A stretch of 64,000 nucleotides of DNA from Ectocarpus siliculosus (taxonomy: Eukaryota > Sar > Phaeophyceae > Ectocarpales > Ectocarpaceae): the NCBI GenBank assembly GCA_000310025.1, contig FN649729.1, positions 3,563,473 through 3,627,472 on the forward strand. The letters run 5' to 3'. Under the pieces are notes generated by a model that saw nothing but the letters and a program-made list of their open reading frames with translations, searched no databases and was not told the DNA's origin. Shown piece after piece: positions 26,058 to 63,297 of this stretch (within the stretch, counting starts at the first letter, position 1; each line of letters begins with the position of its first letter). A program made the position numbers and the translations under genes.

Positions 26058-26467
26058 CAATCTCCCACACTCTACTGACAGCTTTTCTAAACCGCCCATC
26101 CATGGGGGCCTGCCCATGAACTGCCCACCGTGGGCACTTCAACCAGAACTTCGCCACCTTCACGTAGCCTAGAACTTATAGCCAACTTCACATAACCTAG
26201 AACTTTGCCACCAGCGCCAACCTAGCACGTATCGGGTGGGCTTGGGGTTAGGGTTACGGTTAGGGTTAGGGTTAGCGTTAGCGTTAGGGTTAGCGTTAGG
26301 GTTATTATTAGGTGCTATATATAGTGCCCGTTCCAAAGCAGATGATAGCATTTTTTGGAATACATGTACACTGGTTCGCCTTGCGGGGTGCCCATGGGTG
26401 GTCCATGGGTCGCCCATGGGTCGCGTCCCATGGGGTCGTTTGGGAAAACTGTAGAAAGTGTGGGCGA
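26058..26467. mobile_element. CCCATGGG-rich TIR element, copy A (inverted orientation)
   Basis: The ends are CAATCTCCCACACTC on the left and AAAACTGTAGAAAGTGTGGG on the right, which pair as inverted repeats with the copies at 30613, 36955 and 43789. The interior holds GCCCACCGTGGGCAC, a telomere-like block of GGTTAGGGTTAG words at about 26240-26310, TATATATAG, and CCCATGGGT palindromes at the right. No target duplication was found for this copy. Confidence 0.75.
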
Positions 26468-30612: not shown

Positions 30613-31129
30613 TCTCCCACACTTTCTTCAGTTTTGCGAAACCGGCCATGGGACACCCATGGGCGGCCAATGAGTGCCCTTCAACCGGAACCAGTGTGTA
30701 GTACTCCTAAACAATAGATTTCTGCGTTGTGGAACGGGCATTTTCGAAACGGCAAAAAAACGCACCGGTTTTTCGTTCACCGATCCGGGATTTGTTCTAC
30801 CCAACGCATGTGTTTTTTTCTGATCTCCGATGGCAATGGGCCTATATATAATTCCCTAACGCTAACCTAATAGAGCCCTAACCCCAAGCCCATACCAAAC
30901 GTGCTAGGTAGGCTTTGGGTGGCTAAGCTCTAGGTTGATATGCCGTGGCGAGTCCTAGGTTGCCCACGGTGGGCATCACTTCGTGGGCAGTTCATGGGCT
31001 GGGGCCCGCCCACGGGCAGCTCATGGGCAGCCCATGGGCAGCCCATGGGCAGCCCATGGGCCGTCCATGGGTCTGGGATGCCCATGGGGACCCCACGGGC
31101 GGTTTAACTGCCGGTAGCGTGGGAGATTG
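30613..31129. mobile_element. CCCATGGG-rich TIR element, copy B
   Basis: It begins TCTCCCACACTTTCTTCAGT and ends GCGTGGGAGATTG. The interior has GGGCGGCCAATGAG, a CCCTAACCCC telomere-like patch at about 30875, GCCCACGGTGGGC, then at 31015-31075 an array of CCCATGGGCAG words about 10 bp apart. No clear target duplication. No coding content. Confidence 0.75.
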
Positions 31130-32479: not shown

Positions 32480-34190
32480 TACAGTAACGATGACGCCCAG
32501 CAATTGCAAAGAGGCAACCTGTCTCGATAACGCGGTTGCTGGTTTCCGTGGTCTATGGAAACGCTCCCCGGCGCGTTTCCGCGATGTTAGGTTTGACTCG
32601 GGTTGGGCCATCGAAGCCATAGACAGGTTGGTGGATGTGCCGTGTGACTTCCCGGATATGGTTTCGCGTTGAACATCTGATTTTAGTCGTTGTTCCGTGA
32701 AACCGTTTCGTTTTGGACATGCCCCCCAGAGCGAAGCCCTTGGTTTCCTATCGAATCAACCTTTTGGTGGAGATAAAAAAGGTCGATGCCATTCTTGGCC
32801 AATTCCCTGCTGCGAGTCTCATTCAGCAGCCGCAATCGCTCAGGGCGCACCCTCTGGTTTTGTCACTCCCGGAAAGGACGGCAATCTGCGGATGACCGTG
32901 AACTACGTAAAGCTCAACTACCCTGTGGAGCAAGCAATCTTTGCCAGCAAACGCAGCCACGTGTCAACCATATGTATATGTCCTCGATTATCTGCCCAAA
33001 GCAAGGTATTTTCCATTTTCGGCTTGACTCCCGCTCTCCGCAGATCACCGTGGACACTGACACAGTACAGCAGACGACGTCTTTTTACGCCTGTTCCGCT
33101 TTTAGATATTTTTTTTCAAAGGATCCGGATGCTTCACACGTCGTGATTCATCGTGGTCATCGACGAGGTTGCGTGTGTAGACGATCTTGTGTGTGTACCC
33201 TAACCCGATCGAACGTGTCGCCAACACAATTTATGTAGTGAGCATCTTCGCAAGTACAACCTCAAAATTTCTACTTTCACGTGTCGGCGATCAAAGCTGT
33301 TTGATTTTGGTCACACCATCTCCCCTGCGGCCGTTGGGCATTATCACCCTCACGCCGTGGTTGATTCCCTCACACAAATGCAGCTACCAGCCAACGTCGA
33401 GCAGCTGCGTTCTTTGCTGGGCGGGCCTTCGTGCTATTCCTAACATATCCAGGGTCTGGCCATGCGCGTAAACCTCTCACCAACCTCCTGCGTACGGACG
33501 CCAAGTTTGACTATCACAAAAGTATTGGCGGGACTCTCGGAGCCTCCAGTTATTGCCTGTCCGGGTTGGGAAGTTGACGTGAGTTGTAGCCGTCCCCCCC
33601 GCCTGTGCTGTGACACGTGTTCTGTGGATTTTCGGGGCGGCGCTCGAACAACAGGCCCGCCCATGGATCTATCCCCCCCATTCTGATTATGAGTCGCGCT
33701 ACGCTGATATTTCGAAGCCGCAAGAATCGTGTCGGCGTTTGAACGCTTGCGGGGTTACCATTGGTTCACGCTTCATGATTCGGATCGCAATGCCGGCGTA
33801 CAACGCTGGCGTGAGTTCTTCTCCATGGAAGCTACCACAATTGTCAACCAATGTAGGAGATCGCGAAGGACCCAGCTCGCTGCTTACACCTTTCCGAATC
33901 AAAAAATCATTCCTACTTCCATCCTTAGAACGTTACACTCAAGTGCTATCCGCACGCCCCCGGAAGGTCAGGACTTTCTACGCAGATCATTGACGGGCAC
34001 GCACGAGCAGCATGCGATACATCAATGCAACAGCACCAAGAACAATTTGGATGCCATGGTCTTGTGGGCCAAATCCGCAGTTTATCGTGCTGGGCAAATC
34101 CTTCCACCTCAACCTCGTTTTGTCCATCAGTTAGACTACACTTGGCAATCCTTCGACGCCGAATTATGTGTATCTAAGCATTAGACTAGA
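32480..34190 (+). pseudogene. Decayed Ty3/Gypsy-type pol (reverse transcriptase onward)
   Basis: Reverse-transcriptase-like pieces appear in order but in different frames: DMPPRAKPLVSYRIN and VDAILGQFPAASLIQ (about 32715-32840), GKDGNLRMTVNYVKLN (about 32870-32920, the conserved motif before the first catalytic aspartate), PQITVDTDTVQQTTSFYAC (about 33040-33090), then QLPANVEQLRSLLGG-like and VLAGLSEPPVIACPGWEVDV (about 33380-33580), which match the RT/RNase H connection. The catalytic aspartate pair is not recognisable. At least three frameshifts mean it is dead. I did not find long terminal repeats. Confidence 0.7.
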
Positions 34191-34309: not shown

Positions 34310-37300
34310 TCATTGTCCGGCCAGCAGCTGCGTGGCGAAGCTGGCAGCGGCAACGGCGGTGGCGGCGGCGGCGAAGAGGCCACCCGAGCGGAAGAAAGCG
34401 CCGGTCCCTGCGGCCACATTCCCCTAGCATGTCACCAACACCGGCATGGCAGATATTGGAGAAGAATTGCACGGAGAGTTAGGATCAGGATCAGGGGGGG
34501 GCGGGGTCGCCGTGCATCGTGCAAACCACCAGCAACATCTGAGGACGCCTGGAGTACTACGACGAAATCTAGAACCTCGTACATGTATGTAAAGTTTTTA
34601 GATTAGTACGTAGTGTACTTGTGTGTAACAACGGCGGTAGTCGAACTGAAGCACTATGTACACGCTGGAACGGTATGGCACATGCCGCCCACACTGACTG
34701 GTACATATTCCCTGGTACACAACATCGCACTAACCTCCTGCGTGTCTGCCTCCTCATCCGCCTCCGCAACCACGGCGGCGGAGAGCTCGTCGTCCCCACC
34801 GCCATCTTCGATGGATGTGGTGGTGGTGGTCGTCAACGCACGTTGTCATCACCGCCATCATCATCCCCAACGAAGGATGTATGGAGGAAAGAAAACGAAG
34901 GTGTAAAGTTGTGTTTTCCTGCTGAGCAGGTCGGGACTGTTGCACCCGAAAACGCACGCGGTGCAAACACACCACGGGATTGGAGCTCGAAACAGAGAGA
35001 CGCACAAAGAGCATATACGGAGCAGTGGGCATTGCTGACTATCCTCAGAGCCATACGCCACCAAGCATACCGTACTCGCCGCGTGACCTGACGAGGAGAC
35101 ATCGGTTCTCGACAGCAATCTCGAGGGCTCTCAATTGACCTCTGTTTTAGGAGTCAATCGGTTGGGTTCCATGTTCGGTGATGAAGGAAAGTCGTGATCC
35201 TCACGCACATTGCTGTGTGTAGGCGAAAGTTGGATTTTGTTCTGATGAAAATACGGTCCCAGGAAAGCTCGGCATCTAGTCTTTCCGTCGGTTTGCACTT
35301 CATGGCGTAGAGCCTTTCCGCAACACGCCCAGCCACAACCGGCAATCGCCATGTTCTCGACCTACTTACCAGTGCTGCAGGTGTAGCCGTCTGTGCCAGG
35401 AGCGCAAGATTCGTCAGATTCACACGCACCGTCCTCCTCAGGGCAAGCTGCGAAAGGAAATAACGGGGGTAGGTGCTTTGTCAAGGAGCGTGGGAGGACC
35501 GGACGACAGCGCTACAGAATACTTTATTCCATCTTACAAGCATCCAGGTGTTCTGGAGTGCGCAACGACTCGCTGTGATGCGCTCAAGGGGCAAAAACTA
35601 CCTGTTGCACCGGAATCGTCATCTCCATTGAATGCCACGGTGTCGGCTACTCCTTGATATACACAGTGCCGACGAGCATTGGTAGGCCTTATGTTGGGAG
35701 GCGGATCAAGGCGCGCAGACATTTTACTTGTTTCGTACGGAAAAGGTTGTGTCGTCAAGCGCACGTTTTATTGTTGTTGGGACTATTCGTTGCACAGAGA
35801 AGTTGGACCAATACGTCGGCGACAATATTGCCGTCTATTGCTTCGGAACATCAATGGAAGTACCACAACGCTAGCTGTGAGTAGAGTTCTCACAGCATAT
35901 GCCGCCATCCTCAAAACCATCTGGGAGGAACAGGCTGTCGTCCGTGAGAAGAGGTGACCTGAACGGGGCGAAGGTTGCAAAGAGTGAAAGTGCATTTTGA
36001 GAGATGTGGGAGGTACCCATCATTCGACCATCTGCCGACGGCGACTTCACAGAAAATGCTCGCCTAAACTCACACAGTATTACACGCCTAGATCAACTAC
36101 GCCAGGGGAAATCGTTTTTATCCTCGGGCAGAATAGATTCCATAGACATGTCGCCCCTCCAGGAGCGCCGCGGACGTTCAGCCATGGAGTAGCCACCGCA
36201 ACGCTCAACTCCTCGGAACGCCGTCCACGGGTATAGTATGAAGAAGCATAAAATATGTTCACCACAACAACGGAATATTTTTCTCCTGGTACTTTGTGAC
36301 ACGAAAACCTTCACAAAGACGCCGCACCACCGACGGCTGCTCACCCGGTCAACGACGGTAGGCACTGTAAATTTTCGTTGTCTTCCAAGTTCCTGTGTGG
36401 AGCGAATGAGCACGAAAGCGTCAAAGACGGGTGAAGTGGCTGGGGCAGCGAGAGTTCTGAACGTGCGAACGATTGACGGAAGGGCGACGGTCACAGATGA
36501 CTTAGCTAATCTATGCAGTTAAATAAGGTATGCCTCGCTCTGCTAGAGTGGGCACGCCGTCTAACACGTTCTCGATCCAACAATCCGAGGCACGAAGTGG
36601 TAGTGTGCCGATGAAATCAACAGCTGTATCGTGCAGATAGAAGGATTGCACGCTGTTCAGGAGTTGTAGCCAATGGGATCGACATGTCTCCCACTTGATG
36701 TTGATGATACCCATCATGGTCAGTCGCCGGTCAGATGCCGCCATGACTGTGCGAAGAAATTTCTTCTTTTCCGTGGATGAGACACTCACTGCTGTGCCAA
36801 CCACAAGCAAGCGTCAGGACGGCAGTGTAGAAGTGAATACTTATTGGAGGTTCGAGACTTGAATATTCTACAATGCTTGGAGCATTTCCGCACATTGCTG
36901 CTTCACAAGCACCACTACCTGGAAGGGTGTCTCGCCGAACCCTTATCAACAGGGTCTCCCACACTTTCTACAGTTTTGCTAAAACGCTCATGGGTGACCC
37001 GTGGGCCCACCATGGGCCCTTTGTTGCGCATGGGGAACCCATGGTTGACTCATTGGCAGCCCATATGGGCCGCCCATCGGCATGCCCATGGGTATGTCCG
37101 TAGGCAGCCCATGGACAACCCATGGGAAGCCCATGGGCGGCCAATGAGAGCCCGTCAACCGGAACCAGTGTACTCCTAAACAATAGATCATCTGCTTTGG
37201 AACGGGCGTTATAGCGGCTAAAAACCCTAACGAAAATCCTAACCCTAACCCCAAGCCCGCACGATACGTGCTAAGTTCTGCAGTAATTTGATATGCCGGT

Positions 37301-40300
37301 GGCGAAGTTCCAGGGTCAAGTGCCCACGGTGGGCACTTCATGGTCACTTCATGGGCCGCCCATGGGCGGCCCATGGGTGACCCATGGGTGTCCCATGGCG
37401 TTTCAGCAAAACTGTCAGCAGTGTGGGAGATTGTATCAACAGGGCGTTTATGCCATGCGTGTTCGTTTGGGGGGGTTGCAGTTGTCTGCGCGGCCAAATC
37501 GCTGAGTCGCGGGTTGTGTACAACATGGCAGGAAAACCGCAGTGAACATTAGTGTAGGTTTCATTCGTCTCTCCCGGACAGGCATTGACCATCAGATGCC
37601 AGCTACCTGGAGCGTTCCGGTATGTAATTCAGCATTCGTTCGAGGCGCAAAGTAGCATGAAGACCGTTTCAACATTCGCACGTCGATACCATATGCGATA
37701 CGGGAACAGCAAGTAAACTGTGAGCTATCACCAAACACTCGTTTCACATTAGCGACAAAGCGTTTCACGCTGCGGTAGCTCTCGTTCGTGCAGCGAGGAG
37801 AGTGTGTAGCAAGGACGAGTATTTGACGGTCAAACCACCAGCCTACCGCAAGCGCTCTCCTCGTCCACACTACGCGGTGCTGTCACCGATGGAGTTGGAT
37901 ACTTTCGACCTAACAGGATGCCTTCTTTAGGTGCACCGAGGGAACGACAAGGCATCACACAACTCACAGAAGTTGAAGCGCGTCCAGACCGTCCAGGAGC
38001 CCCGCGGGGAGCGAAGCGAGCTGGTTGCCATGCAGATAGCTGATTTGTGCCGTACCGCGCAGACGAACATGGGGTGACGACAGTGTGCGTTCAGAACACA
38101 CGGTACCAACGGTAACGTCATTTGGTCTCCAAACGGCACCCACAAAACCGGTGCGACACCGAAAAAATGCGTGAAACGTCAGCCATCACCAAGCACACGG
38201 AGCGAGAAACAACGGGTATTTTGGCGGTAAGACCACAAGCCTACTGTACGCGTTCTCCTCGTCCAATCTACGCCGCACTCCCGTCGATACTCTCGAACAA
38301 GAGGTTGCGGCTCAAGCTGATGGGTTCCACTGAGAGGAACACGAGGCGTTAAATAACTCACAGGTTTCTTAGAGAACCCAAACCGTCCAGAAGCTCCACG
38401 GGGAGAGAATCCAGCTGGTTGCCATTCAGATAGCTGAGATGTGCCACACATATCCAAAAACGGGGAGTGACGACGGTGGGCGTTCGGAAAAGGTGCAATC
38501 AACGGTAGCGTAATTTCGTCACCAAGGGCACTCAACAAACCTGGTGCGACACCTGAACAACACGTAACCCGTCAAAACGATCACCAAACACTCGTTCCAC
38601 GTCCACGAAAGCTTTTGCGTTGTGGAACCTCCCGTTGTGCGGGGAGTGAGCTTCGGCAACAAGAACGGCCAACTCACTTAGTAGCCTACTACAAGATTTT
38701 TTCCCGTCCACTCTACGCGATGCTCCCGCTGATGTACACAGTGCGACGCTCGACTACAAGTTGGGTGCTCAAGCTCAAGAGGATGAGTTGCACCGAGTGG
38801 AAGATGAGGCGTCACACAACTCACATGTTGCGCAGCCCATCGTTTCCGTCGAAAAGCCCCGCGGGGAGCGAAGCGAGTTCGTTGCTATAAAGATAGCTGA
38901 TTTGTGCAGCACCGAGCGGGCGCAAAACGGAGAGTGACGATGACGTTACGCGTTCAGAAAAGATGGAAATCAACGGCAACGTCATTTTCGTCTCAACGGC
39001 GCCCCCTACAATGCTGGTGTGACACCGGAACGGAAAGTGGACCGTGAGCGATCACCGAACACACGTTCCATACGAGCGACACCGGCCGGTTGTGGTAGCT
39101 CTCGTTGTGCGTGGGGTGAATATGGGTAGCGGGCAACAAGAACGGGAAGTTGACGGTTGACCACTAGCCTCCTCTTTCCTCATCCACTCGTTGCGGTGTT
39201 CTAGCCGATGGAGTTCGATTCTCGCGAACAAATAGGTTGCGTTCTGTAACTTGTGTGGATGAGCTGTAGCGAGATGAAACCGAAGCGTCACGCAACTCAC
39301 AGATATTGCAGCGCACCCAGACCGTCGAAAATCCCCGCGGGGAGCGAAACAAGCTGGTTCTCATACAGAGAGCTGATTTGTACCGCACCGAGCAGACACG
39401 AACGGGGAGTGACGACGGTGTGCGTTAAGAAAATGATGGTAACCAACGGCAACGCCGTTTTGCCACCAAGAGATACCCTATAAAGCTGGTGCGACACTGG
39501 AACAGTACGTCAACCGTCAGCCATCACCCAGCACTTTCGACATCAGCGAAAGCGATTCTCTGTACGGTAGCTCCTGTTGTACGGGGAGTGGGCGTGGGCA
39601 ACAAAAACGGGAATATCGAGGGCTAAACCAATAGCCTACAGCAAGCGGTCGCCTCGTTCACTCTATGCGATGCTCTCGCCGATGAAGTTTGATGCTCTCG
39701 AACAAGCAGGTTGCGTTATTTACCTCAGGTGGATGAGTTGCGCCGAGAGGAACACGAGGCGTCATACGTACAACTCACAGGAATATAAGCGCATCCAGAC
39801 CGCCGAAAATGCCCACAGGGAGCGAAGCGAGTTCGTTGTCATCTAGAAGTCTGGTTTGCACCGCCAAGCAGAGGCGAAAATGCAGAGTGGCGGCAGAGCA
39901 CGTTAAGAACACGGTGTCAATCAACCACAACGTGTTTTTCGTCACCAAGGTGCACCCGATACAAAGCTGGCGCGACACGTGAACCGTCTACCATCACCAC
40001 GCGCACGTTCTTCATCAGCGAAGCTTTTCGCGATGTGCTTCTTGTAGCTCCCGTCGGGTGGGGAGTGAGCGTGAACGGGGATTGGGGAGGTCAAACTGCC
40101 AGCCTATTGCATCAAACTGCCAGCCTATTGCAAGCATTCTCCTCTTCCACTTGATGCCGTGCTACCGCCGATGGAGTTCAATACCCTCGAACAAACAATT
40201 GCGTTGTGTGCCCAGGTGGATGAGCTCCACGTAGAGAGGAAGACGAGGTCTCACATAACTCACAAACTTCGCAGGGCACCCAGACCGTCGAATATCTCCG

Positions 40301-43300
40301 CGGGGAGCGAAGCCAGCTGGTTTCCATTCAGATAGCTGATTTGTCCCGCACACATCAAGCAAAAAACGGAGTGACAACGGTGTGTGCGTTCAGGAACGCG
40401 TTTCGCGTTGTGGTAGCTCTCGTTGTCCGTGGAGTGGGCGTGGACAAGAAGAACCGATACTTGACGGTGAACTCACTAGCCCAGTATGCGGTGCTCGCGC
40501 AGATGGATTTCGCCATATGTTCGATAAATGAGGTTGCGTTGTGTAGCTCAGGTGGATAAGATGTACCGAGAAGAAGACGAGGTGTCACACAACTCACAGA
40601 TATTGCAGCGCATTCAGGCCGTCGAAAAGACCCGCCTGGAGCGAAGAAAGCTGGTTGTCGCGTAGATTGCTGTACTTCCGCATCGAGAAAGCGAGAAACG
40701 GGGAGTTACGACGGTGCGCGTTCAGAAAAGAGGTGGTAACCAACGGAAAAATGTTTTTCGTGACCCAAGAGCACTCTACAAAGCTCGTGCGACACCGGAA
40801 CAGCACATGAACTGTCAGCGATCATCAAACACACGTTCCATGTCAGCGGTACGTTTTCGGGGTGTGATAACTCCCGTTGCCCTGGGAATGGGAGTAGGCA
40901 ACAAGAACGGGAAATTGACGGTCAAACCAATAGCCTACTGCAAGCGTTCTCCTCGTCCACTCTACGCGGTGCTCTCGCCGATGGAGTGTGATACTCTCGA
41001 ACTAGCAGGTTGCGTTGTGTAGGTCAGGTGGATGAGGGCCAACGAGAGGAACACGAGGCGTCACGCAACTCACAGATATTTCAGCGCACCCAGGCCGTCG
41101 AAAAGCCCCACGGGGAGCGACGAGAGCTGGTTCTCATGTAGATAGCTGATTTGAACCGCACCGAGCACATGCGAAAAGGAGAGTAAAGACGGTGCGGGTT
41201 CAGAATAGGTTATCATGAACGACAACATATTGTTTGTCGTCAAGGGGCACGCTACGTTGGAGTGACACCGGAACAGCGCATCACCCGCGAACTATCACCA
41301 AGCACACGTTCCACATCAGCGAAAGCGTTTCGCCTTATGGTAGCTCCCGTTGTACCGGGAGTGGGCGTGGGCCTTGAGAACGGAAATTGACGGTCAAACC
41401 AATAGCCTACTGCAAGCGTTCTCCTCGTCCACTCTACGCGGTGCTCTTGCCGATGGAGTGCGATACTCTCGAACAAACAAACAGGTTGCGTTGTGTAGCT
41501 CAGGTGGATGAGGGCCAACGAGAGGAACACGAGGCGTCACACAACTCACAGATATTTCAGCGCATCCAGGCCGTCGAAAAGCCCCACGGGGAGCGAAGAG
41601 AGCTGGTTCTCATGCAGATAGCTGATTGGAACCGCACCGAGCAGACGCGAAACGGGGAATGACGACGGTGCGGGTTCAGAAAAGGTGATCATGACCGACA
41701 ACATACTGTTTGTCGCCAAGGGGCACGCTACATGCAACAGCGAAAGCACATGGCCCGTGATCACCAAGCACACGTCCACATCAGCGAAATCCGATACGAT
41801 GGGTTTGTCCAGTGCCTCGGTATCCGGGCGTGGAAGGCACGGGACCTTCACATGGGGTTCAGCTCGAACCCGGCATTCTGCAAATGGGCATCCACTCGGA
41901 CCTGCGTTCTTCCTGTTGCACGTTTTGTTGGGTTTTCGTTTGTTCGAGGCCGAAACTCTGCGAGCGGCACTTGAAGGAAACATCCCACCGTCTCATCCCC
42001 CGCTCTCACATCTAGCTTTTCTCTCACATGTAGGTGATGATGTCTCGTCCAGCCGAATCGAAGCACGCCTGGATATCGGGAATGTCAGCATCAACCAGAT
42101 CTTCACACGAATTGCTCGCGGAAGATGACCACGTGAACGAACTGTTGGGCGAGAGACAACGTGGCAAGGTAATCCATAAGGTTAAGGGAGATACAGAGAA
42201 AGAGAAGGAGAAGTCACGACAAAGAGAACGACGGGCGGAGAGAGACAGGGACAATCCACAACGTCAGGACAAGCCATTTCCCAACGCTTTCATTTCGCGG
42301 ATACCGACCTAAGAGGCAACATCCCGGGCAAGAATACTGTACAACCCACAAACACTTGCCACAAATCCGACAACAGGTACCTCTCGGCATGTAAAAATAC
42401 GTGTAGCTAACCAAGGCCCACGCAATCAACTTCTCACAGCACGCGCTACAGTGTAAGTCTTGGCCTCTACAAAACCGATGAAAATGTTCTCCTTTAAAGC
42501 ATTAATGAGGACAGACCCTCCTCAACGACACTCCTCGCTGCCCAAGGCCGAGAATGGTTGGCTACTACCGGAAGCACCAGACCCCAGCATCACGTAGTAT
42601 ATGCGATTCTCAACAAGCCTGAAGTCGAGTGGTTCTCACCAAGCAGCGCGTCGGCTAGCAACGTTGGGAGGACAGCCACATATAGTGGGACCCCGAGCTT
42701 CCGGTAAGTTGGCAACTCAGCGGCACGAGTGAACATCTAGTTTATGATAGCTTCGATAGTTTCGAAGCGATAATCCTTCCCTACCTCGGGAAAACGAGCC
42801 GGAACTTACATTTGGGTCGTGCCGGGGGCACACCTATAGTTCACGCTGTCGTTGGCGTCGAGGCAAGGATTCAGACCTGAAAATAACGTGCAGCGCTGTC
42901 AAAAAAATGGAGCGACGCTGTAGATGAGAACCATGATCAGAAACGCACCCCGCCAACATCGTGGAGCCAGCGGGCGGCGGGTGCCGTGACAGAATGGGAC
43001 AAATTGGAATTGTGATCGTCGCCACGCATACGTTCGTCCTCGACAAGTCGGCTCAATATGGGGCCTGGGATTCACAAGGCCCGTCCAATGAAAAGGCCCA
43101 TTATGAGCTATGCACGCAAATACAAGAATGTTGTTTCGAGGCGAATGGGCGCACTAGCAAAAATATTCCGTCGCATCACATAGCCGCAGCAGCCGTATGA
43201 TTGCCGTGTTGTCATATTGATTGAGGCCGTGCTACTGCGGCGACTGTGGCACCAGGCATATAACGATTCGGTGTCGTGTGCAATAGACTGGAGATTGCTG

Positions 43301-43651
43301 GTGCTGTGTTCTTGCTGGGACGACGTGTCAGGCGTCGAACATCCGGGGATTGTGATGAAGTTTTCATGGATTCCACGACAACAAACACGTGCGTTGTTGC
43401 AGATCTGTGCTATCAGGTAAGGCAATGCCTGTCGGCATATATTTGTCAAGGTTTTGACGGCTGTGTAACCATCCGTCGTACAGCACGGCTCGCCTTCTTT
43501 TTCACCAAAAGGAATCGAGCAGATATTTGGGCGCGCGTTTGTTGAGCCCCGCACACACTCATTCGTCACGTCACTCACCTTTTGCCCCAGAAATGACGAG
43601 TAGGGCCGTCGGCAGAAGTTTGTACCAAGACGAGGACCTCGAAGGGGACAT
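34310..43651 (-). CDS. Secreted or GPI-anchored LRR protein, 16 exons, nine single-exon LRR cass­ettes
   Basis: Exons high to low: 43651-43579, 42876-42810, nine LRR exons (41621-41550, 41145-41074, 40669-40598, 40335-40264, 39850-39779, 39372-39301, 38896-38825, 38433-38362, 38039-37968), then 35958-35894, 35646-35602, 35447-35370, 34805-34735, 34423-34310. The total is 1161 nt (386 residues), all in phase. Residues 1-24 (MSPSRSSSWYKLLPTALLVI) look like a signal peptide. Residues 25-46 carry two cysteines like an LRR N-cap. Residues 47-262 are nine 24-residue LRRs such as YLHENQLSSLPVGLFDGLDA. Then come a cysteine-containing stalk (CPEEDGACESDESC), an acidic linker, and a C-terminal hydrophobic segment (GLFAAAATAVAAASF) ending seven residues after LATQ-like sequence at a stop. 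That layout suggests a GPI-anchored or tail-anchored surface recognition protein. The stalk exons and the acceptor at 34806 (CGAAG) are less certain than the LRRs. Confidence 0.8.
36955..37433. mobile_element. CCCATGGG-rich TIR element, copy C, with 11-bp target duplication
   Basis: It begins TCTCCCACACTTTCTACAGT and ends AACTGTCAGCAGTGTGGGAG plus ATTG, with inverted GCTAAAACGC/GCGTTTCAGC inside the ends. TATCAACAGGG flanks it at 36944-36954 and 37434-37444, an exact 11-bp target duplication. The interior has CCCATGGG palindromes at both sides and CCCTAACCCC telomere-like words in the middle. It lies in the large intron of the LRR gene between exons 37968 and 35958. A 9-11-bp duplication is typical of Mutator-type transposition. 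Confidence 0.9.
37930..41660 (-). repeat. Tandem array of LRR exon-plus-intron units, about 476 bp each
   Basis: The nine LRR exons start at 41621, 41145, 40669, 40335, 39850, 39372, 38896, 38433 and 38039. The spacings are 476, 476, 334, 485, 478, 476, 463 and 394. Introns are homologous too: each repeats a GGTGCAACTCATCC-like start, a TCGGCGAGAGCACCGCGTAG block, CCCGTTCTTGTTGCCCACGC and a branch/acceptor ending AAATCAG|C. Exons are exactly 72 nt with phase 2 at both ends, so copies can be gained or lost without changing the frame. The 334-bp unit has lost about 140 bp of intron. Confidence 0.9.
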
Positions 43652-43788: not shown

Positions 43789-44191
43789 CTTCCTACACTT
43801 TCTACAGTTTTGGTGAATGGGCGGCACGTTGTGCTCATGGGGAATGTCCGCAGGCAAGTCCATGGGTAGCCCATGGGCAGCCCATGGGCAGCCCATGGGT
43901 AACCAATGAGTGCCCTTCAACCGGAACCAGTAAACAATAGATTTTCTGCTTTGGAACGGGCATTATAACGGCGAAAAACCCGAAAGCTAACCCGAACGCT
44001 AACCCCAAGCCCACGATATACGTGCTAGGTTGGCGCTTGGTGGCTAAGTTCTAAGTTGATGTGCCGATGGCAACGTTCTAGGTTAATATGCCGGTGGCGA
44101 ATTCTAGGTTGAAGTGCCGACGGTGGGCACTTCGTGGACAGGTCATGGGCTGCCCATGGGCCCACCCAAGGGCATTAGTGCGGGAGAATTG
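43789..44191. mobile_element. CCCATGGG-rich TIR element, copy D, with 11-bp target duplication
   Basis: It begins CTTCCTACACTTTCTACAGT and ends GTGCGGGAGAATTG. TCTTCCGCGTG flanks it at 43778-43788 and 44192-44202, an exact 11-bp duplication of different sequence from that of copy C. The interior holds CCCATGGGCAG words at 43860-43900 and GCCGACGGTGGGCAC. Its left boundary lies about 130 bp upstream of the start codon (43651) of the LRR gene, so it occupies that gene's promoter region. Confidence 0.9.
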
Positions 44192-61366: not shown

Positions 61367-61440
61367 GTGCGGTGATGAGATGGTAACCTCCAAGACACTG
61401 TGGGGGTAGTAGTCTAACCCCCCCCCCCTCCGCCCGCCCC

Positions 61441-61567
61441 GGTGTTTGCCATCGGGGTTTGGGTTTTCGTCGCTTGGCAACGACGTTGTAAAACAAGCCC
61501 CCCACTCGGTGTTTGCCATCGGGATTGGGTTTTCGTCGCTTGGCAACGACGTTGTAAAACAAGCCAA
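61441..61567 (+). repeat. 67-bp tandem duplication
   Basis: GGTGTTTGCCATCGGG, then TTCGTCGCTTGGCAACGACG and TTGTAAAACAAGCC, begins at 61441 and again at 61508 with one or two differences. It follows the third deacetylase exon and is non-coding. Confidence 0.9.
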
Positions 61568-62082
61568 TTCACTTCGTGAACTCGGCAACCAGGTTACTAC
61601 CGTTTTTTTTTTTTGCCTCGTTTTTTTTTTTGGCGGTAACCATAATGGTGGTCGAGTAGATCATGTTGTGCGGGGTCGAGAACCCTCACTCCGCGCAACG
61701 GGGGATGATCGCACCACGTTGTGTTAAAATGGTCAAGCTTCCTCGAGGCAGTTACCCAGTGTTTACAACTGTTTTTGGAAGTGAAAGCCCCAGAAAATAA
61801 ATTAAGTCATAGGTAGCTTTCATCCGTACGCAAGGAAGTAAGCCCAAGATGCCGAACCCCCTTAGCAGGATGCAGCTCCCCCTTCATGGGACTCGCCAAA
61901 TCCCTCCCGGCGTTTCGCGCTTGGTGATGTGAGACCCTGGTCCGGTGAGAACCCGGGGTGTTCCGTCCCGGCTTTGTAGGGATGGGAGGTCAATGGTCAA
62001 ACGATTAGGGCATGCACGATTAAAAGTCCCCCCCCCCCCCCCCCCACAAACAAGTGGCCGAGGTCCAGTTGCTGTAGAGATC

Positions 62083-63297
62083 ATGAGGATGGTGAAGAAG
62101 CCGGGAGGATGGAAGCAGAAACTGTGGCAGGGAGACAGGTTGGAGCTGCTGCTGTTTGGAATTCCAAGGGACATGACGAGGATAGAGTTCAAGAACTGGT
62201 GTGACACGGAGGGACTGCATTGCCTAGCAAGGGGAGAAGTAGGCAGAGAGCATGAACACTTCCGGGTGAAATTGACCAAGGGAGACAGCCAAGAGTGCTT
62301 GGGGGTTGACATCGAGAAGCTGTCGAACTACGTAAGGAAGGTTGGATGGAGGGTTTGCGTCGCGAACATGATAGGAACAGAGAAGGTAAGGCGACAGGAG
62401 GCGAGGGCGATAGAGGCGAAGAAGAGACCGGGTGGGGGAGACGAGCAGGCAAATCAGAAGAACGCCGAGAAGAAGCGGAAGGCGAAGGATAGAGTGCGCA
62501 AAATCTCCAATAGGGAAAAGCACAAGCTGAGAGTGGGGTCGTGGAACGTGTGCGGGTTCGCAAGGAGTGAGCGCAAGCGGTTGGAAATAGTGGACCAAGT
62601 AGAACAAAGCGATCTGGATGTAGTGGGGATCCAAGAGACGTGGGAACTGAAGGATGGGGACGTGATAAGCAAAATAGGGAAGTACCGGTGGGTAGGGAAG
62701 GCAAGAAAGGGCTTAGACCCGAAGAAAAGGGGGGAGGGGGGAGTCGGATTCCTGGTCAAGGAACACTTGTATGACGTGGTGGAAGTAGTGGTGAAAACGG
62801 AGTTCGAGGAAAGCCTATGGCTTAAGATACCTGGGGAGCGGGGTGAGAAAGATTTGTTTCTAGGGAACGTATACGTCCCACCGTCGTCGAAGAAAGTCGC
62901 AAGCAAGGCGCAGGAGAACTTCGGACAAATTGGGGAAGATGTCCAGAGGTTCAGTAGGAAGGGAGAAGTTGTCATGGTGGGCGATTTCAACTCCAGAGTA
63001 GGGAAAGCTTGCAGTAGAGGACAGGCGATCGGGCAGCACGGAGAAGACGAAGTGAATGACAACGGAGTGAGGATGCTTGAATTCTTGGGAAGCAACGAGC
63101 TGATGGTGTTGAACGGTAGGAGGGAAAGCGATAAGCCAGAGTTAACCAGGCAGAGGGCAGTTTGCAATGAATACTCGATCCTCGACTACATCCTGGTAGA
63201 TAGGGGGAGCACACAGGTCCCGGAGCTGCACGTAAGTGCGATAGATATAGGTTCGACCGACCATTTCCTCATATGGGCAAACATTCGACCGATCTAG
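62083..63297 (+). CDS. LINE endonuclease domain (AP/exonuclease III-like)
   Basis: The element's endonuclease nicks target DNA to prime reverse transcription. After an N-terminal region of about 150 residues (GDRLELLLFGIPRDMTRIEF, charged linker KKRKAKDRVRKISNREK), the catalytic motifs appear in order: VGSWNVCGF at about 62530, IQETW (metal-binding glutamate) at about 62629, GGVGFLVK, VYVPPSS, MVGDFNSRVG at about 62973, LDYILVD at about 63183 and STDHFLIW (catalytic DH) at about 63252. I prefer the ATG at 62083, although the frame is open from 61945. It stops at 63295, where related elements would continue in the next frame. Confidence 0.85.
   Translation: MRMVKKPGGWKQKLWQGDRLELLLFGIPRDMTRIEFKNWCDTEGLHCLARGEVGREHEHFRVKLTKGDSQECLGVDIEKLSNYVRKVGWRVCVANMIGTEKVRRQEARAIEAKKRPGGGDEQANQKNAEKKRKAKDRVRKISNREKHKLRVGSWNVCGFARSERKRLEIVDQVEQSDLDVVGIQETWELKDGDVISKIGKYRWVGKARKGLDPKKRGEGGVGFLVKEHLYDVVEVVVKTEFEESLWLKIPGERGEKDLFLGNVYVPPSSKKVASKAQENFGQIGEDVQRFSRKGEVVMVGDFNSRVGKACSRGQAIGQHGEDEVNDNGVRMLEFLGSNELMVLNGRRESDKPELTRQRAVCNEYSILDYILVDRGSTQVPELHVSAIDIGSTDHFLIWANIRPI

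Follow-up and report, generated by a model that had tools for sequence, protein, structure and literature searches.

The ROCO genes of brown algae, which encode GTPases with leucine-rich repeats (LRRs), are reportedly built from 72-bp phase-2 exons, a description that citing papers trace back to Zambounis 2012. For these genes Teng 2024 (PMC11378527), in the part of the paper available to us, describes 72-bp phase-2 LRR exons, positive selection on concave sites and alternative splicing, and it also describes 15 non-ROCO sequences with 72-bp LRR exons in Saccharina japonica, most of which have LRR motifs only. Arrays of phase-2 LRR exons, 90 bp long, have been reported for thousands of genes in Tetrahymena (available part of PMC6564038). 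Judging from this literature, as far as available, exon-built LRR genes appear to be an unusual but already reported brown algal way of building recognition proteins. Here we analysed a stretch of 64,000 nucleotides from Ectocarpus siliculosus (C4:3563473-3627472, from here on the window), with searches of the genome (189 Mb, 492 contigs), and we describe in it an LRR gene that probably encodes a surface recognition protein anchored by glycosylphosphatidylinositol (GPI).

The gene resembles the brown algal ROCO LRR-GTPases, insofar as the available text describes them, in having one LRR per 72-bp exon with phase 2 at both ends (9/9 exons here), variable concave residues and shuffled tandem exons. 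Unlike them, it has no ROC or COR domain that we could see, and a signal-like exon, cysteine caps and a hydrophobic tail point to an extracellular protein. With the Tetrahymena arrays, as their source presents them, it shares phase-2 exons of exact length and tandem expansion through exon shuffling, but the exons measure 72 and not 90 bp, the Tetrahymena genes number thousands, and the likeness is presumably convergent. The non-ROCO shuffling sequences of S. japonica have the same exon length and, in the available description, no ROC-COR, and by this comparison of exon type only they are very likely of the same kind. From the analysis of the sequence we think it rather likely that the window holds a functional 17-exon gene for a secreted, capped and tethered LRR protein, which would bind a putative ligand on its concave face and whose LRR exons would be shuffled within a copied module.

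The corrected gene model runs on the minus strand from 43651 to 34310, with 17 exons and a coding sequence of 1251 nt for 416 residues. All 16 introns are GT..AG, the phases close and internal stops are absent, and from its sequence and the comparison with paralogues the model looks intact. The original prediction had described a complete gene of 1161 nt and 386 residues, made of nine 72-nt LRR exons, in phase 2 at both ends, and five flanking exon types. The nine LRR exons were borne out, all of them on the minus strand and bounded by AG and GT. The claim of completeness did not hold, as the nine LRR exons and the five matched flanking exons add up to 1051 nt and the remaining 110 nt found no match. 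All five flanking types could be located, and the predicted signal peptide, the N-cap and the cysteine exon stand; the acidic linker and the tail rest on one homologue, and three further exons had been overlooked. A direct join of the ninth LRR exon to the cysteine exon is impossible, because the former leaves in phase 2 but the latter is entered in phase 1. DNA similarity to contig C14 led to a homology check and through it to the overlooked exons (42028-42114, 36345-36392 and 35894-35958), with which every phase closes. The exons are listed below from the 5' end of the gene, with phases as entry/exit.

43579..43651, minus strand, exon 1, predicted signal peptide MSPSRSSSWYKLLPTALLVISGAK, 73 nt, exit phase 1
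42810..42876, minus strand, exon 2, N-cap GLNPCLDANDSVNYRCAPGTTQ, 67 nt, phase 1/2
42028..42114, minus strand, exon 3, N-terminal LRR segment NSCEDLVDADIPDIQACFDSAGRDIITY, 87 nt, phase 2/2, newly added
41550..41621, minus strand, LRR exon 1, 72 nt, phase 2/2
41074..41145, minus strand, LRR exon 2, 72 nt, phase 2/2, exon 96% and next intron 81% identical to those of LRR exon 1
40598..40669, minus strand, LRR exon 3, 72 nt, phase 2/2, escaped a first pattern that required LP
40264..40335, minus strand, LRR exon 4, 72 nt, phase 2/2
39779..39850, minus strand, LRR exon 5, 72 nt, phase 2/2
39301..39372, minus strand, LRR exon 6, 72 nt, phase 2/2
38825..38896, minus strand, LRR exon 7, 72 nt, phase 2/2
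38362..38433, minus strand, LRR exon 8, 72 nt, phase 2/2
37968..38039, minus strand, LRR exon 9, 72 nt, phase 2/2
36345..36392, minus strand, C-cap exon 1 NLEDNENLQCLPSLTG, 48 nt, phase 2/2, newly added
35894..35958, minus strand, C-cap exon 2 SPLLTDDSLFLPDGFEDGGIC, 65 nt, phase 2/1, newly added
35370..35447, minus strand, cysteine exon CPEEDGACESDESCAPGTDGYTCST, 78 nt, phase 1/1
34735..34805, minus strand, acidic exon DGGGDDELSAAVVAEADEEADTQE, 71 nt, phase 1/0, weak donor gttagt
34310..34423, minus strand, last exon GNVAAGTGAFFRSGGLFAAAATAVAAASFATQLLAGQ*, 114 nt including the stop, hydrophobic C-terminus

The nine LRR exons span 41621-37968, and each encodes one LRR of 24 residues that roughly follows YLxxNQLxSLPxGLFDGLxALxxL. 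A strict pattern (AG, 72 nt, GT, with five fixed L/N positions) matches nine times in the window, each time at one of these exons, and never in the remaining window; 50 resamplings by a first-order Markov model also yielded no match. With eight intervening introns of 262-413 nt, one exon plus intron mostly repeats every 480 bp or so. Between cassettes, identity ranges from 61 to 96% for exons and from 52 to 81% for introns, the closest pair being the first two; this range, together with a concentration of the variation at concave positions, agrees with the idea in the original prediction of a modular and rapidly evolving gene. We also observed a dispersed repeat, by eye rich in CCCATGGGC words, with copies at 37134-37433, inside the intron between LRR exon 9 and C-cap exon 1, and at 43903-44161, upstream of the gene; weaker matches lie at 26092-26268 and 30626-31101, and a further copy precedes a second copy of the tail exons on contig C48.

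The exons on both sides of the LRR array were compared with paralogues on contigs C14, C25 and C4. By its composition exon 1 is a signal-peptide exon: when 200 stretches of 2.1 kb were drawn at random from C14 and C25, 0 contained an equally hydrophobic ATG..GTRAG exon of the same phase, and a comparable signal-like exon (MRVLACALAIWATGVAN, phase 1) lies upstream of the first C14 module. The N-cap has homologues in all six C14 modules, in C25 and at C4:3126124, with its two cysteines retained, and exon 3 has homologues in the six C14 modules, in C25 and at locus L037. C-cap exon 1 aligns with seven paralogous exons with no internal indel, and its donor GGGTGAGC is retained in five of them, the others being GGGGGAGC in C25 and GGTAAGC at C14:718759. 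For C-cap exon 2 the comparison with eight paralogous exons gave no internal indels other than of 3 or 6 nt, with the AG acceptor and the GTGAG donor kept in 8/8. The cysteine exon differs from seven paralogous exons by indels of 6 nt only; its donor is GTAAGT in four of the seven and GTAGGT in a fifth, and the exceptions are C14:719612 and C25, with GTGTGT in C14 module F and no donor at the aligned place in C25.

A different cysteine exon (35602..35711, minus strand, PTNARRHCVYQG...) fitted the phases from LRR exon 9 to the cysteine exon and was first included, then dropped. Indels break its frame in three of four C14 homologues, and in none of the four do the aligned borders show AG or GT; the homologue at C14:693930, with an open frame and a 3-nt gap, is the sole point in its favour. 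Because of the broken frames and lost splice sites, and because the C-cap exons close the phases without it, we judged this stretch to be intron with a frame open by chance.

The most extended relatives lie at C14:667798-719695 (loci L025-L030), where six modules, A to F, follow the order N-cap, exon 3, LRRs, C-cap 1, C-cap 2, cysteine exon; module C has an additional C-cap-2-like exon, and modules E and F have two LRRs side by side. By eye, two types alternate along the array, one (A, C and E) like the window gene and the other made up of B, D and F. The gaps between matches are about 335 (A-B), 377 (B-C), 353 (C-D) and 342 bp (E-F) in C14 and 357 bp in C25, and 13.6 kb separate modules D and E. 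At 335-377 bp, the distances between consecutive modules look like introns rather than gene borders. The N-cap acceptors are in phase 1 in the window gene, in modules B-F and in C25, and the cysteine-exon donors are in phase 1 in modules A-F, which makes the stretch from N-cap to cysteine exon a class 1-1 unit. As this ectodomain has been copied with mostly intron-like spacing, the LRR exons would be shuffled inside a module that is itself shuffled, and the tandem C14 modules possibly give multi-module relatives or receptors. Looser kin were found at C4:3126124, C14:751 kb and C14:809 kb; the genome searches score the best candidates only, and the family counts are lower bounds.

The two last exons have a single homologue each, both within C48:273422-274334, a second copy of the acidic and tail exons. 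The acidic exon is there 56 nt long instead of 71, with identical phases and with AG and GT kept; the last exon (about C48:274.04-274.15 kb) keeps its AG, lacks 6 nt without a change of frame and stops at the corresponding position. In 8 kb read around this copy we found neither LRR exons nor cap or cysteine exons, and since, moreover, the dispersed repeat precedes it, it may be a fragment. From the hydropathy of the tail, which ends the 416-residue model with no cytoplasmic part, we infer a GPI-attachment signal. After C14 module F comes an open frame rich in threonine, proline and serine, which closes with a stop after a stretch more hydrophobic than the window tail (2.18 over 19 residues); this putative continuation is consistent with a tethered family. 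A transposon as the source of the 3' block was considered and rejected: the search listed no more than a partial copy, split into two pieces on C48, plus three short matches beside the C14 and C25 cysteine exons.

Several observations weigh against a functional, secreted and tethered recognition protein. The stretches of C14 and C25 that were read contain no homologue of the acidic or tail exons, for which the only support by homology is the possibly fragmentary C48 copy. With a hydropathy of 1.67 over 19 residues, the tail only just attains what a membrane segment would show, and part of the LRR region is higher (1.76). The kin at C4:3126124 had no signal exon that we could find within 2.1 kb upstream. 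Finally, when the nine window exons are taken alone, nonsynonymous divergence is below synonymous divergence at the concave columns (dN/dS 0.62/0.88; other columns 0.16/0.50).

This last point bears on what the protein would do. The concave columns, named after the repeats were seen, are 22 and 23 of an exon together with 1, 3 and 4 of the exon that follows it, which from LRR geometry we take to form the concave face. None of 2000 random sets of five columns reached their proportion of nonsynonymous differences (pN) in the nine window exons. Over 25 exons, namely all nine window exons, a single C25 exon and 15 out of 23 LRR-like exons of 72 nt in C14 (the selection leaves out eight divergent C14 exons and those C14 LRR exons that came up only in the module survey), dN/dS is 0.92/0.57 at the concave columns and 0.18/0.47 at the others. 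It is quite possible, if somewhat less probable than a role in recognition, that the same protein is no immune receptor and serves in the cell wall or in adhesion (development, gametes or contact with the matrix), the concave variation being then functional divergence or relaxed constraint among paralogues. The concave ratio below 1 within the window suits such a role, and so do the WSC domains, presumably carbohydrate-binding, that follow C14 module D at a distance of 1.3-3 kb downstream and whose membership in the same gene is only putative. Brown algae also possess, according to the available part of PMC8307928, LRR receptor kinases of unknown ligand. However, the excess of dN over dS at the concave columns of 25 exons and the turnover of cassettes suit a varied ligand better.

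The dispersed repeat within an intron (37134-37433) would fit another explanation, a silent or decaying locus that acts as a reservoir of LRR cassettes for recombination, as Teng 2024 proposes for LRR-only sequences (PMC11378527, available part). We consider this improbable, given that the 17 exons have no stop, frameshift or lost splice site, that the indels among paralogues are in frame and their splice sites mostly kept, and that the columns outside the concave face are constrained (dN/dS about 0.37 over 25 exons).

The domain content of the gene was also evaluated. In the 416-residue model LRR_8 was found by Pfam at 4e-53, and only LRR families were over the cut-off. By sequence there were 356 matches in the PDB; at the head of the best 60 stand LRR proteins that are extracellular (IGF-binding acid-labile subunit, LRRC15, LRRTM and LGR4), with lamprey VLRA further down; SHOC-2, which we take to be cytoplasmic, is also present. 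On paper the gene is like the lamprey variable lymphocyte receptors (VLRs), which are GPI-anchored, in its capped extracellular LRR arc and interchangeable modules. Unlike in VLRs, the window cassettes are separate exons of one gene, and LRRNT and LRRCT are not listed by Pfam for the model at E up to 1. Searches run exon by exon gave no match in the window interval for Roc, COR-A or NB-ARC, of which the genome has at least 54, 1 and 32 matches, respectively (lower bounds), and ROC and COR are also absent from the model by Pfam; kinase domains were not searched for. The original prediction of a secreted or tethered LRR protein with no GTPase or nucleotide-binding (NB) domain agrees with this search, with the signal-like exon, with the cysteine caps kept in paralogues and with the hydrophobic end. 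That the model is the ectodomain of an LRR receptor kinase or of a ROCO LRR-GTPase, with catalytic exons outside it, is very unlikely in view of these negative searches for Roc, COR-A and NB-ARC, the signal-like exon, the cysteine caps and the in-frame stop in the last exon, even if the LRR exons of brown algal ROCO genes are likewise 72 bp and phase 2 in the available part of PMC11378527. At two Roc-positive places of the genome (L039 and L040), stretches of 10 kb were read and contained no LRR exon of 72 nt; these places may not be ROCO genes.

Two further open frames of the window lie outside the gene. The frame at 61933-63297 (plus strand, 454 aa) has an endonuclease/exonuclease/phosphatase domain (Pfam 2.4e-12) and probably belongs to a non-LTR (long terminal repeat) retrotransposon; the region 61433-62045, mostly just 5' of it, is 92% identical to a stretch of locus L038. 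Another, at 32673-33146 (plus strand), looks by eye like a decayed Ty3-type reverse transcriptase, with no match in Pfam.

Sequence and paralogues together show a signal-peptide-like exon, an N-cap with two cysteines, a first LRR segment that departs from the standard, nine regular LRRs of 24 residues each, a C-cap and a cysteine-rich exon, and, through one homologue, a short acidic linker and a hydrophobic tail. In a secreted and tethered recognition protein, a GPI anchor at this tail would hold the capped LRR arc on the outer face of the cell. The concave face might then bind a microbial, cell-wall or partner-cell ligand, and, as no cytoplasmic domain is seen, transmission of a signal would need a partner. 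The exon joints lie within the concave strand, so that gain, loss, exchange or skipping of exons would keep the frame and make a new binding surface. Cassettes would multiply by unequal recombination between the units of about 480 bp, and the whole class 1-1 module from N-cap to cysteine exon also stands in tandem copies at other places of the genome, from which multi-module relatives probably arise. A bolder proposal, which we find rather doubtful, is a shuffling at two levels, with class 2-2 single-LRR exons within a class 1-1 capped module: whichever level underwent free recombination or exon skipping, the resulting surface receptors would stay in frame and gain new faces for binding. Algae would thereby have an extracellular parallel to the diversity of VLRs, and alternative splicing might even diversify the receptors inside a single individual.

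Since Teng 2024 (available part) already describes 72-bp phase-2 LRR exons and non-ROCO sequences, the novelty is weaker than the original prediction implied. A literature search over titles and the beginnings of abstracts found no brown algal family with 72-bp LRR exons described as GPI-anchored or as multi-module. Relative to the literature found, the fresh part would be a secreted architecture with caps and the nesting of LRR exons in a class 1-1 module. To our knowledge, the shuffled-exon receptor candidates of brown algae (ROCO and NB-TPR) have so far been understood as intracellular. A whole gene with a predicted signal peptide, caps, a tail and tandem relatives would offer a concrete candidate for the cell surface.
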